Origin: Oenococcus oeni DSM 20252 = AWRIB129
Lineage (GTDB): Bacteria > Bacillota > Bacilli > Lactobacillales > Lactobacillaceae
NCBI RefSeq assembly: GCF_000372485.1
Contig: NZ_AQVA01000008.1
Coordinates: forward strand, 1 to 64,000
Length of the DNA stretch: 64,000 nucleotides
Reading direction: 5' to 3'
Shown here one piece after another: positions 26,869 through 29,539 of this stretch. The position numbers and the translations under genes are program-made. Below the pieces are notes generated by a model. That model saw only the letters and a program-made list of their open reading frames with translations. It ran no database searches and was not told the origin of the DNA. The first letter of the stretch is position 1. Each line of letters opens with the position of its first letter.

Positions 26869-27903
26869 TTATTTCAATGGAACATCGACCTGCCAGCCAT
26901 CTGGTCCTTTTTGATCGCCATCTTGAATGCCGCTCAAACGATCATATAGTTTTTGTGTATAGGGACCGACTTCGGTTTCACTATAGAAAACATGCTTATT
27001 TCCGTTATGGGTGATTGAGCCGACGGGAGAAATTACGGCTGCAGTGCCCATTGCGCCGGCTTCGGAAAATTGATCCAAGTCATAAATGCTGATCGTCGTT
27101 TCTTCAGGCTCCATTCCGAAACTGTCAGCGATTTGCAATAGTGATTTTTTTGTGATCGATGGAAGAATTGATGGGGACTTCGGTGTTTTAAACTTACCGT
27201 CTTTAGTGATTCCGAAGAAGTTGGCACCACCAAGCTCTTCGATATTTTCATGCAAACGCGGGTCCAAGTAAACCACATCGGAATAACCGTTTTTATGAGC
27301 AAGCGAACCCGGTAGCAAACTTGCAGCATAGTTTCCGGAAACTTTTGATTGGCCGGTTCCACCATGTGCGGCTCGATCATAAGGACTTGTTACGTATTCT
27401 GTCGGTTTCATGCCGCCTTTATAGTATGGCCCGACTGGCGTAACCAAAATATGAAATTGGAATTTGTCGGCCGGATGAACACCGATTACTTCGCCGGTAC
27501 CGATGATAAAGGGGCGAATATATAAAGTTGCACCGGAACCATACGGAGGAACAAAATTCTGATTAGCTTTAACGACCATTTTAACTGCTTCAACAAAACG
27601 GTCTTCTGGGAAAGGAGCCATCAACAAACGTTCTGCTGAATTATGTAGACGCTTGGCATTCATGTCCGGACGGAACAAATTAACGCCACCATCTTTTCGA
27701 CGATAGGCCTTTAAGCCCTCGAACGCTTCCTGACCATAATGTAACACGTTGGCGGCTTCAGACATTTTAATCGTCGAATCGCTTGTCAGTTTTCCTTCAT
27801 CCCATTTTCCATCTTTATATTCGGCATGAAAACTATATGGTAAATCATAGTAATTAAAGCCTAAATTTGGCCAATCAAAATTTTCCGCTTTTGCTTTTTC
27901 CAT
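26869..27903 (-). CDS. ilvE: branched-chain amino acid aminotransferase
   Basis: IlvE is a PLP enzyme that interconverts branched-chain amino acids and their 2-keto acids. The 344-residue protein is of the fold-type IV group II form: LHYGQEAFEGLKAYRR, NAKRLHNSAERLLMAPFP, the PLP lysine in GQSKVSGNYAASLL, and the SEAGAMGTAAVISPVGSI phosphate-binding loop. Ribosome site AAAGGAG precedes ATG 27903. It stands as a single gene with its own terminator. Confidence 0.95.
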   Translation of the reverse strand: MEKAKAENFDWPNLGFNYYDLPYSFHAEYKDGKWDEGKLTSDSTIKMSEAANVLHYGQEAFEGLKAYRRKDGGVNLFRPDMNAKRLHNSAERLLMAPFPEDRFVEAVKMVVKANQNFVPPYGSGATLYIRPFIIGTGEVIGVHPADKFQFHILVTPVGPYYKGGMKPTEYVTSPYDRAAHGGTGQSKVSGNYAASLLPGSLAHKNGYSDVVYLDPRLHENIEELGGANFFGITKDGKFKTPKSPSILPSITKKSLLQIADSFGMEPEETTISIYDLDQFSEAGAMGTAAVISPVGSITHNGNKHVFYSETEVGPYTQKLYDRLSGIQDGDQKGPDGWQVDVPLK

Positions 27904-27947: not shown

Positions 27948-29285
27948 TTAAACAACGTCCAGATGTAAGTCGTTTTCTCTTGTTTTACCAACACTTTTCA
28001 GTAATTTATACCAAAGCCAGGAAATTGCTACGGGACCAACTAAACCAAATATCAGCATTGTTGCAAGACCGGACAATCCATTTGAAAAACCGGAATTTGC
28101 AGACATCGAAAGAATATTAAGCGGTGCTGTTAGTGAAGAAAAGCCGAGGCCGCCAAGCGTTGCAGGAACTTTGAATCCACCAACTGTAACGGCTAGCGAT
28201 GCCATTAACATGGCGGAAACCATCGGGCCGATTGCTGTTAAGGGTGATTTGATGATATTTGGAAATTGGACCTTAGGTGTTATCAATCCTTGAGCTATAT
28301 TAGCTCCAGGATCGTTTTGATTAAAACTCATTGCTGTATAACCCGAGAAAGCTGCGCAGCAACCGATTAATGCCGCACCAGCCGATATTGGATCAAGATT
28401 GACTGCGACTGCCAGTGCAGCTGAGGAGGCTGGTGTCATTAAGAACCAGAACCAGGCAAATGAGACAACTACGGCTCCAAGAACTGGATTTACTTTCATT
28501 GTGTTTGCGAGATTTTCTGAAACCCAATTTAAGAATGGCGTTGTTACCGACGCTGCTGCCAGACCGACTAAAGAACCAACCAGCGTCGCACAAAAGGGAA
28601 CGATGAACATATCCAACGCTGCTGCCAGACCGACTAAAGAACCAACCAGCGTCGCACAAAAGGGAACGATGAACATATCCAAAGGTGTTTTTCCGGTCAG
28701 CCACATACCGACTAAAGCGGCCGCTAATCCGGCGATTACAGCCGAGACCGGTTGGCCGACAGTCACAATCGTTGCTCCGCTTAATTGTGGCGCAACCCAT
28801 CCGGTGGCTGTTTTTGTTGCTTTGATTACTGCTTCGGTGAAATAAATCGAATTAGCACCGACGGTTGCGGCAATCATTGCCGAAAAGGTTGTTAAAGTTG
28901 TTGAACGTAACTGAATCGCTATCCCGGCTCCAATTGCCGGAGCCAGTAAATGTTGACCAAGAATTCCCACCATTTGCAATGGGGCCCAGTGCAGCAAATT
29001 ACCGGCTGTATTTAAAAGAATTGAAATTCCAAGAATTACTAAAACAGCATTGGAAATTCCCTGGCTGACTGTATAAACCCAGTCGGAGATCTTCATCTTC
29101 TTTTCCGGCCTTGTTAAGGGACCAGAACCGGGTCTTAATTCCTCGGTTTGAGGTCGATCGTTTTTAAATTTAGCTGCCGCGGCAACGGCTGCTGTATAAG
29201 CGGCGCTGCGTTGTTCAGCTGTCATTGAAGCTGGATCTTGATCAAATAGATTCGATTGAGCTTCTGATTGCTTCCTTGCTGTCAT
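27948..29285 (-). CDS. PTS EIIC-like membrane transporter with internal duplication
   Basis: A 445-residue membrane protein with about ten hydrophobic segments, resembling the PTS_EIIC_2 type (stand-alone IIC-like proteins); the sugar or other substrate is unknown. The N-terminal 65 residues are hydrophilic and rich in Ala, Gln and Lys. Residues LDMFIVPFCATLVGSLVGLAAA occur twice in tandem in the middle, from a perfect 66-base repeat, which adds about one membrane span. The gene is preceded by a long leader with an intrinsic terminator (29303-29504). Ribosome site AAGGAGAG lies before ATG 29285. Confidence 0.8.
   Translation of the reverse strand: MTARKQSEAQSNLFDQDPASMTAEQRSAAYTAAVAAAAKFKNDRPQTEELRPGSGPLTRPEKKMKISDWVYTVSQGISNAVLVILGISILLNTAGNLLHWAPLQMVGILGQHLLAPAIGAGIAIQLRSTTLTTFSAMIAATVGANSIYFTEAVIKATKTATGWVAPQLSGATIVTVGQPVSAVIAGLAAALVGMWLTGKTPLDMFIVPFCATLVGSLVGLAAALDMFIVPFCATLVGSLVGLAAASVTTPFLNWVSENLANTMKVNPVLGAVVVSFAWFWFLMTPASSAALAVAVNLDPISAGAALIGCCAAFSGYTAMSFNQNDPGANIAQGLITPKVQFPNIIKSPLTAIGPMVSAMLMASLAVTVGGFKVPATLGGLGFSSLTAPLNILSMSANSGFSNGLSGLATMLIFGLVGPVAISWLWYKLLKSVGKTRENDLHLDVV
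28551..28682. repeat. perfect 66-bp tandem direct repeat inside the transporter gene
   Basis: Bases 28551-28616 and 28617-28682 are identical. Each copy is 22 codons, so the frame is kept and a 22-residue hydrophobic segment is doubled. The lack of any difference between the copies indicates a recent duplication (or an assembly artefact). Confidence 0.95.
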
Positions 29286-29302
29286 CTTTCTCTCCTTAAA
29301 AT

Positions 29303-29343
29303 AAAAACCTGTTTCAGTTAATCAAACTAACCGAAACAGGTTT
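29303..29343 (-). terminator. leader terminator ahead of the EIIC-like gene
   Basis: On the minus strand AAACCTGTTTC pairs with GAAACAGGTTT, extended by a partly paired GGTTAG/TTAACTG, and is followed by T-rich sequence. The T-box-like GGTT just upstream could pair with the left arm as an alternative structure. Confidence 0.8.
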
Positions 29344-29504
29344 AAAAAATTTTCAACCATGCCAGCCAGCTGTCTTTCGACGGCTGACAAAATGATCAGT
29401 CGTCATTGCCTAATTAGCAACACGAGGCTGATCAAAATAATTGATTCACTCATATTCATTTGTTTGCAATTATTTAACATGTACTCTCTTGCTCTTTCGA
29501 GTTG
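29303..29504 (-). promoter_or_regulatory. structured leader RNA with terminator, before the EIIC-like gene
   Basis: The minus-strand transcript from the promoter at 29511-29539 starts with a roughly 200-base leader that holds no gene. By eye it has four elements in order: a small CUC-gaaa-GAG hairpin near the 5' end; AAUAAUUG/CAAUUAUU (29436-29474); the long nested UGAUCAG/CUGAUCA stem with UCGU/ACGA and UUGC/GCAA inside (29393-29434); and GUCAGC/GCUGGC around GUC-gaaa-GAC (29365-29388). It ends in an intrinsic terminator (29303-29343) just before the ribosome site. No known riboswitch or complete T-box signature is recognised. Attenuation control of the transporter is inferred. Confidence 0.6.
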
Positions 29505-29510
29505 TAACTT

Positions 29511-29539
29511 AGATTACTCGGCAAAATTTGGATTGTCAA
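29511..29539 (-). promoter_or_regulatory. promoter of the EIIC-like gene
   Basis: Minus-strand -35 TTGACA (plus 29534-29539), 17-base spacer, -10 TAATCT (plus 29511-29516). Confidence 0.75.

Follow-up and report, generated by a model that had tools for sequence, protein, structure and literature searches.

The stretch of Oenococcus oeni DNA analysed here (64,000 nt, hereafter the window) has a strongly folded leader on its minus strand (about 29298-29504), which comes with a promoter, ends in an intrinsic terminator and precedes a gene encoding an EIIC-like membrane protein (PF13303). A branched-chain aminotransferase gene, ilvE, starts 44 nt after the EIIC-like gene and probably belongs to the same operon. 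All features are listed in Table 1.

Table 1. Features of the EIIC-like locus, with positions in the window and the basis or role of each.
Feature	Position	Strand	Basis or role
-35 hexamer TTGACA	29534..29539	minus	sequence; genus relatives
-10-like hexamer TAATCT	29511..29516	minus	sequence; 17 nt from -35; weak match
Putative leader peptide ORF including stop codon, MLNNCKQMNMSESIILISLVLLIRQ	29403..29480	minus	sequence, shuffles, relatives
Control codons 14-23, ATT ATT TTG ATC AGC CTC GTG TTG CTA ATT	29412..29441	minus	codon comparison
Segment 1, GATCAGCCTCGT	29422..29433	minus	within control codons; pairs with 2
Segment 2, GACGACTGATC	29394..29404	minus	overlaps leader stop codon; pairs with 1 or 3
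Segment 3, TCAGCCGTC	29379..29387	minus	pairs with 2 or 4
Segment 4, GACAGCTGGCTGGCATGGTT	29355..29374	minus	pairs with 3, or with 5 as antiterminator
Segment 5, AACCTGTTTCGGTTAG	29327..29342	minus	terminator 5' arm; pairs with 4 when ON
Intrinsic terminator 5:6 with T-tract	29298..29343 (stem 29305-29343)	minus	terminator search; covariation
Ribosome site GGAGAG of the EIIC-like gene	29290..29295	minus	sequence
Regulated gene 1, EIIC-like membrane protein (PF13303 PTS_EIIC_2)	27948..29285	minus	profile match, E 3.2e-64
Gene 2, branched-chain aminotransferase ilvE	26869..27903	minus	NF009897 and TIGR01123 above cut-off

The sequence-only reading of this locus had described a good promoter followed by a structured leader and a terminator. 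The leader and terminator were confirmed on the minus strand: the terminator, a stem of 18 pairs with a T-tract sitting directly before the ribosome site of the EIIC-like gene, was the sole one in 501 nt for 0.3 expected, and the transcribed strand folded at -65.6 kcal/mol (z = -5.2), which none of 200 shuffles equalled. The plus strand likewise folded well (z = -6.3), because inverted repeats fold on both strands, and the full-length leader RNA folded with the terminator formed. As for the promoter, the -35 hexamer held up, being TTGACA in two of three distinct genus relatives and TTGACT in the third, but the -10 hexamer is poor (3 of 6 consensus matches), which is why the promoter is absent from the consensus-scan list. 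A scan with Rfam 15 over the 64,000 bases of the window returned no match at gathering score. Searching the leader against Rfam at E-values up to 10 gave six sub-threshold matches, none of them a T-box or a riboswitch, the best being Ref1C (E = 0.44, 23 bits for a gathering score of 90).

By comparing genus relatives side by side, we recognised a leader ORF of 25 codons between the promoter and the terminator, with a weak ribosome site (AGAGAG) upstream; it was overlooked in the sequence-only reading and is missing from the ORF list because of the 80-amino-acid minimum of that list. Ile, Leu and Val account for 9 of its last 12 codons, a score absent from 500 dinucleotide-shuffled versions of the upstream region and one that ranks it first among the 361 ATG ORFs of 14-45 codons in the window, tied with a single ORF lying out of frame inside another gene. 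Among four Oenococcus leaders the first dozen codons vary freely, and the changes within the Ile/Leu/Val block are synonymous codons and swaps among these three amino acids only. The ORF is probably translated into a leader peptide.

Six segments of the leader can pair in two mutually exclusive ways: 1:2, 3:4 and 5:6 together give an OFF state with the terminator, and 2:3 and 4:5 give an ON state with an antiterminator. The UGGC and AUGG motifs previously taken for an at best degenerate T-box core turned out to be segment 4, the arm of the antiterminator. A short U-rich stretch with G as its last base (AUUUUG or similar) was also noted between segments 2 and 3 (window about 29388-29393, minus strand), which by eye recurs across genera and in the leaders of brnQ genes (see below); it is unpaired in the proposed structures, which do not explain it.

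To follow the pairing as a function of ribosome position, we folded nascent transcripts reaching as far as the terminator loop and excluded from pairing all RNA as far as 14 nt beyond the first base of the P-site codon. The minimum-energy structure consisted of 2:3 and a long 4:5 with the A site at Ile17, Val20 or Leu22, and with the ribosome at the stop codon, 3:4 formed and segment 5 was largely free in the masked folding. With the A site at Ile14, the first control codon, the minimum-energy structure still had 3:4. In the absence of a ribosome 1:2 and 3:4 formed and segment 5 of the truncated RNA also paired (mean 0.67) with the leader's 5' end, so that an OFF state in the absence of translation is not clearly predicted. 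The difference in segment-5 pairing between the stall positions and the early and stop positions was 0.446 in the window for a null mean of -0.007, and was reached by 5 of 1000 shuffles. A wider folding test located the terminator in 35 of 37 leaders (none was found in L047 and L083, and that of L032 was wrongly assigned): 34 of the 35 lay above their null mean, 10 were clearly beyond their shuffles (at most 3 of 60 as good), and the O. kitaharae-type leader was not distinct from shuffles (24 and 14 of 60), several Weissella leaders behaving likewise.

A protein search yielded 308 confirmed related stretches, the best 80 of which were taken as loci. Thirty of these 80 came from six genera: Leuconostoc (14), Weissella (8), Fructobacillus (4), Convivina (2), Oenococcus (1) and Periweissella (1). 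Of these 30 loci, all drawn from the best 80 of 308, 29 have a leader ORF whose last codons form an Ile/Leu/Val run; at the 30th (L055) the contig end cuts the leader, and the Leuconostoc leader model described below (R1) still matches there. A comparable leader ORF also occurs in Fructilactobacillus lindneri (L042) and in one MAG (L047), and the leader is doubtful at L083 and L101. Two scans judged by eye brought up no such leader at the remaining 46 (of the best 80 of 308), which come from one Listeria and from further Lactobacillaceae, and an Rfam scan of 15 of these 46 loci together with L101 found no T-box at gathering score.

When each leader was compared with its own shuffles, 29 of 37 had at most 5 of 500 as good, and L101 failed (199/500). 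A reverse-strand ORF equalled or beat the leader score in 3 of the 37 upstream regions (L031, L072, L101). We then discarded L050 (from the genome that also has L002), L068 (its peptide is that of L064) and two doubtful cases, L083 and L101, and retained L041 although its peptide equals that of L037, resulting in 33 clear leaders. At least three Ile were present in the last 12 codons of all 33, at least two Val in 19 and at least two Leu in 13, so that Ile is the constant signal; the reading frame was kept in all clear leaders. Four loci (L008, L009, L010 and L015) represent a second EIIC-like group with Leu-rich leader ORFs (for example ..ALLLNLLLI or ..INLLLSLLGNS before the stop codon) and, after them, repeats that look like terminators; this group may be a branch of the system specific for Leu.

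Alignments of related leaders, a check that the sequence-only reading had itself proposed, showed the pairings to be conserved, with covariation in the OFF structure. For the OFF pairs of 12 Leuconostoc leaders, 99.7% of cells were paired (slid controls 22-49%) and double changes occurred in 9 of 24 pairs (0/500 shuffles as good); on the measure "further pair types" these OFF pairs were not above shuffles (490/500). The corresponding values were 96.0% and 4 of 20 pairs (0/500 shuffles) for 10 Weissella-group leaders, where the test took in 3:4 and 5:6 only, and 98.5% and 5 of 33 pairs (21/500 shuffles) for the four Oenococcus leaders. ON pairs were kept at 100% (alignment A3), 97.7% (A2) and 93.1% (A4), with slid controls at 9-64%; no double changes were found among them in A3 and A4, and the two in A2 were within chance (138/500). 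Free covariation of ON pairs is not to be expected, because each ON segment is also an OFF segment, and the missing covariation is no positive evidence for the ON pairs. The poorly aligning L036 and L047 were left out of the Leuconostoc alignments A3 and A6.

A single cross-genus covariance alignment (A5) was rejected, as the segments lined up badly between Oenococcus and Leuconostoc. Two separate models were therefore built, R1 from Leuconostoc EIIC leaders only (12 loci) and R2 from Oenococcus EIIC leaders alone (four leaders). R1 matched in 31 of 151 family genomes at E-values up to 0.01, and 30 of its 36 matches were opened. A branched-chain leader peptide was present at each of its 12 best loci (E up to 1.5e-5). 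At nine of them the gene that follows is EIIC-like (shortened in one, L148; some of the nine are from training species), and at the other three, in Oenococcus genomes, it is brnQ. The 18 weaker loci (L153-L170, E from 3.4e-5 up) were without a comparable leader and were taken as chance. R2 found brnQ leaders in two closely similar genomes (E = 2.1e-7 and 5.4e-6), the EIIC leader of L. fallax (E = 2.3e-4) and, among the best 80 of 308 loci, the Periweissella leader (E = 1.3e-10), and also gave weaker matches (E = 0.006 to 0.1). R1 missed the leader of the window at E-values up to 10 and R2 did not report the brnQ leader of the genome of the window at E-values up to 0.1; cross-genus homology therefore rests on R2, architecture and gene context, and homology among all these leaders is supported, if not uniformly.

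The brnQ gene of the same genome belongs to PF05525, the classical family of branched-chain carriers, and has a leader of its own, with the peptide MYQNKTLVSQIVISLVIII, hairpins and a terminator (L111, positions 1281-1460, contig C5). A brnQ match was obtained in 32 of 41 genomes searched, and 30 brnQ loci were opened: a branched-chain leader was present in all six from Oenococcus, including this genome, and in one from Leuconostoc fallax, and no convincing leader was seen at the remaining 23. At two further brnQ loci, L115 and L140, there are ORFs in which Ile, Leu and Val make up 7 of 12 codons, the one at L140 lying before a TTGACA. In the brnQ leaders of relatives, segments 4 and 5 contain, by eye, a recurring element similar to CAGCUG. 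We also searched for ilvC, which matched in one of seven genus genomes (two of the seven incomplete). In G006, the operon with ilvC is preceded by a terminator and a leader ORF, MDTSNSYSNVKLLQNVIAIIILAIIIMRVCDLMPGLF, that contains VIAIIILAIII (L181 minus strand, 11060 to about 10845); this leader was found by eye and not listed by the ORF filter, and the other ilv genes were also named by eye. The ilvC search gave no match in the genome of the window, which must therefore probably import branched-chain amino acids. A search for CodY returned no match in any of 25 family genomes (three under 90% complete), while 12 of the 16 genomes taken from the order did match.

The predicted fold of the EIIC-like protein is closest to PTS EIIC proteins (PtsG, MalT; E = 4.9e-5 to 4e-3, TM 0.46-0.53), a weak-to-moderate match obtained from a structure model of moderate confidence (pLDDT 68.8), perhaps partly due to a 22-residue duplication. 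This is a perfect 66-bp tandem duplication inside the gene (window 28550-28682), which adds 22 residues in frame (LDMFIVPFCATLVGSLVGLAAA twice) and does not occur in the genus relatives G002, G004, G005 and G006 (423 vs 445 amino acids); it is possibly a recent mutation altering or damaging the protein, or an assembly error. No EIIA or EIIB was found fused to the protein, where PF13303 was the only domain, or among the four neighbours at the locus (ilvE, MarR, aldehyde dehydrogenase and histidine phosphatase). Across the best 80 of 308 loci, ilvE occurred in the same orientation and at most 400 nt away, downstream in 15 and upstream in four, and within 510 nt in three more; 58 of the 80 stretches had no ilvE. 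Control shared with brnQ, together with the ilvE link, points to a branched-chain amino acid or a keto acid as the likely substrate, narrowing what had been called an unknown substrate, and on this genomic context the protein would probably import branched-chain amino acids or related keto acids.

With a probability of about 0.9, we consider the leader to be a ribosome-mediated transcription attenuator sensing a shortage of charged branched-chain tRNAs, Ile foremost. The ORF lies between promoter and terminator, its codon run is for amino acids to which the downstream ilvE is linked, frame and run are conserved, the exclusive pairings are conserved as well, and brnQ and ilv genes have cognate leaders; the choice between terminator and antiterminator is set by ribosome position in the computed folds. 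When amino acids are plentiful, the ribosome would reach the stop codon in segment 2 and cover that segment, 3:4 would pair, segment 5 would be left for the terminator 5:6, and transcription would stop. Under shortage, the ribosome would stall on the Ile/Leu/Val codons and cover segment 1, so that 2:3 would pair and segment 4 would be freed to pair with 5; no terminator would then form, and read-through would transcribe the EIIC-like gene and ilvE. Without translation, 1:2 and 3:4 would form and the terminator should follow, giving OFF by analogy, a state that the truncated fold does not clearly show. The attenuator plan of the sequence-only reading, with the ribosome site directly behind its terminator, was thus right, and its suggestion of tRNA sensing survives in an indirect form, as charged Ile-, Leu- and Val-tRNAs would be read by the ribosome and not by a T-box.

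The strong fold, the terminator and the lack of a known Rfam family would also suit an undescribed riboswitch for a branched-chain amino acid, a keto acid or another metabolite, as would the U-rich stretch ending in G that by eye recurs across genera between segments 2 and 3. Apart from this stretch, however, no conserved unpaired core was seen by eye in the alignments, and what is otherwise kept across genera is the Ile/Leu/Val run beside the stop codon and the complementarity, along with the reading frame in all clear leaders. The ligand-sensing aptamer suggested earlier is therefore unsupported, with no Rfam match at threshold and with a codon run and exclusive pairings as the conserved features, and we regard a riboswitch as very improbable. 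A constitutive structured 5' UTR, in which a partial terminator would act without regulation, appears a little less probable again, given that the OFF structure covaries, that the ON pairings are largely kept and that the computed fold switches within the control codons.

Firmicutes often use T-boxes for amino-acid genes, the UGGC-AUGG motifs resemble a degraded core, and T-boxes were detected elsewhere in 4 of 17 related loci and before another gene in G006; uncharged tRNA might then bind the leader directly and stabilise the antiterminator. Yet the same search that detects T-boxes in these other loci returned none at gathering score for the window and none at E-values up to 10 for the leader, the supposed core coincides with segment 4 and a T-box does not explain the conserved reading frame, which leaves this possibility with hardly any weight. 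We give just as little credence to the small ORF being an independent gene (such as one for a type I toxin or for a small, hydrophobic peptide of the membrane, with the hairpins ending its transcription), for although the peptide is short with a hydrophobic C-terminal end, its N-terminal residues vary freely in the four Oenococcus leaders while the Ile/Leu/Val block is constrained, such ORFs lie upstream of branched-chain-linked genes where examined, and the ORF, with its stop codon, takes in segment 1 and overlaps segment 2.

Ribosome-mediated attenuation of this kind has well-known counterparts. The six-segment relay (1:2/3:4/5:6 vs 2:3/4:5) is that of the his leader. As in the trp and his operon attenuators of enterobacteria, the regulatory codon run overlaps the first pairing segment, the stop codon lies in segment 2 and alternative pairings decide on the terminator; unlike there, the codons are branched-chain, a transporter-like gene and ilvE take the place of biosynthesis genes, and the host belongs to the Lactobacillaceae. 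The Rfam models of the trp and his leaders (RF00513 and RF00514) gave no match in the window. The Leu/phe leader (RF01743) is also of leader-peptide nature, and its model matched neither in the window nor in the 17 related loci scanned. As a leader of Lactococcus lactis, it is a named one within the Lactobacillales (PMC2864571).

Among Firmicutes, PMC5794164 describes an ilv-leu attenuator of Staphylococcus aureus with a 26-amino-acid Ile/Leu-rich leader peptide, a terminator and a predicted antiterminator in front of branched-chain genes, a layout similar to that of the present leader, and cites leader-peptide predictions for L. lactis and streptococci. The S. aureus system differs in being a biosynthetic operon also under CodY, whereas the target here is transporter-like and no CodY was found, and in that its predicted antiterminator pairs with the U-tail of the terminator, whereas 4:5 uses the terminator 5' arm. 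Leader-peptide attenuation of his genes is described for bacilli (PMC2965389) and other Firmicute groups (PMC9413887); there, leader peptides stand in place of T-boxes, as here, for another amino acid and in other lineages, and T-boxes are listed for the his genes of Oenococcus and Leuconostoc (PMC9413887).

The mechanism is thus a known one, and the clade and the targets are new as far as our literature searches reach: these returned no report of such a leader for Oenococcus, Leuconostoc or Weissella, or for brnQ in the clade (subscription papers being mostly outside their scope), and no paper using the name PTS_EIIC_2. An unexplained leader becomes a specific, testable switch, and a clade is added to the Firmicute lineages with leader-peptide attenuation. 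On a broader and tentative view, to which we give slightly less than even odds, branched-chain uptake in Oenococcus, Leuconostoc, Weissella and near relatives would be run by a regulon of related leader-peptide attenuators (on the EIIC-like gene, often with ilvE, on brnQ, and on ilv genes where present) in a family in which no CodY was found, and the stand-alone PF13303 protein would be a carrier of branched-chain amino acids or keto acids, so that a fold of PTS type would have been put to new use for a substrate other than a sugar, with no phosphotransfer partners. One kind of element precedes several branched-chain genes where no CodY was found, and through regulation it hints at the substrate of an EIIC-like family whose Pfam name says no more than phosphotransferase-system subunit.
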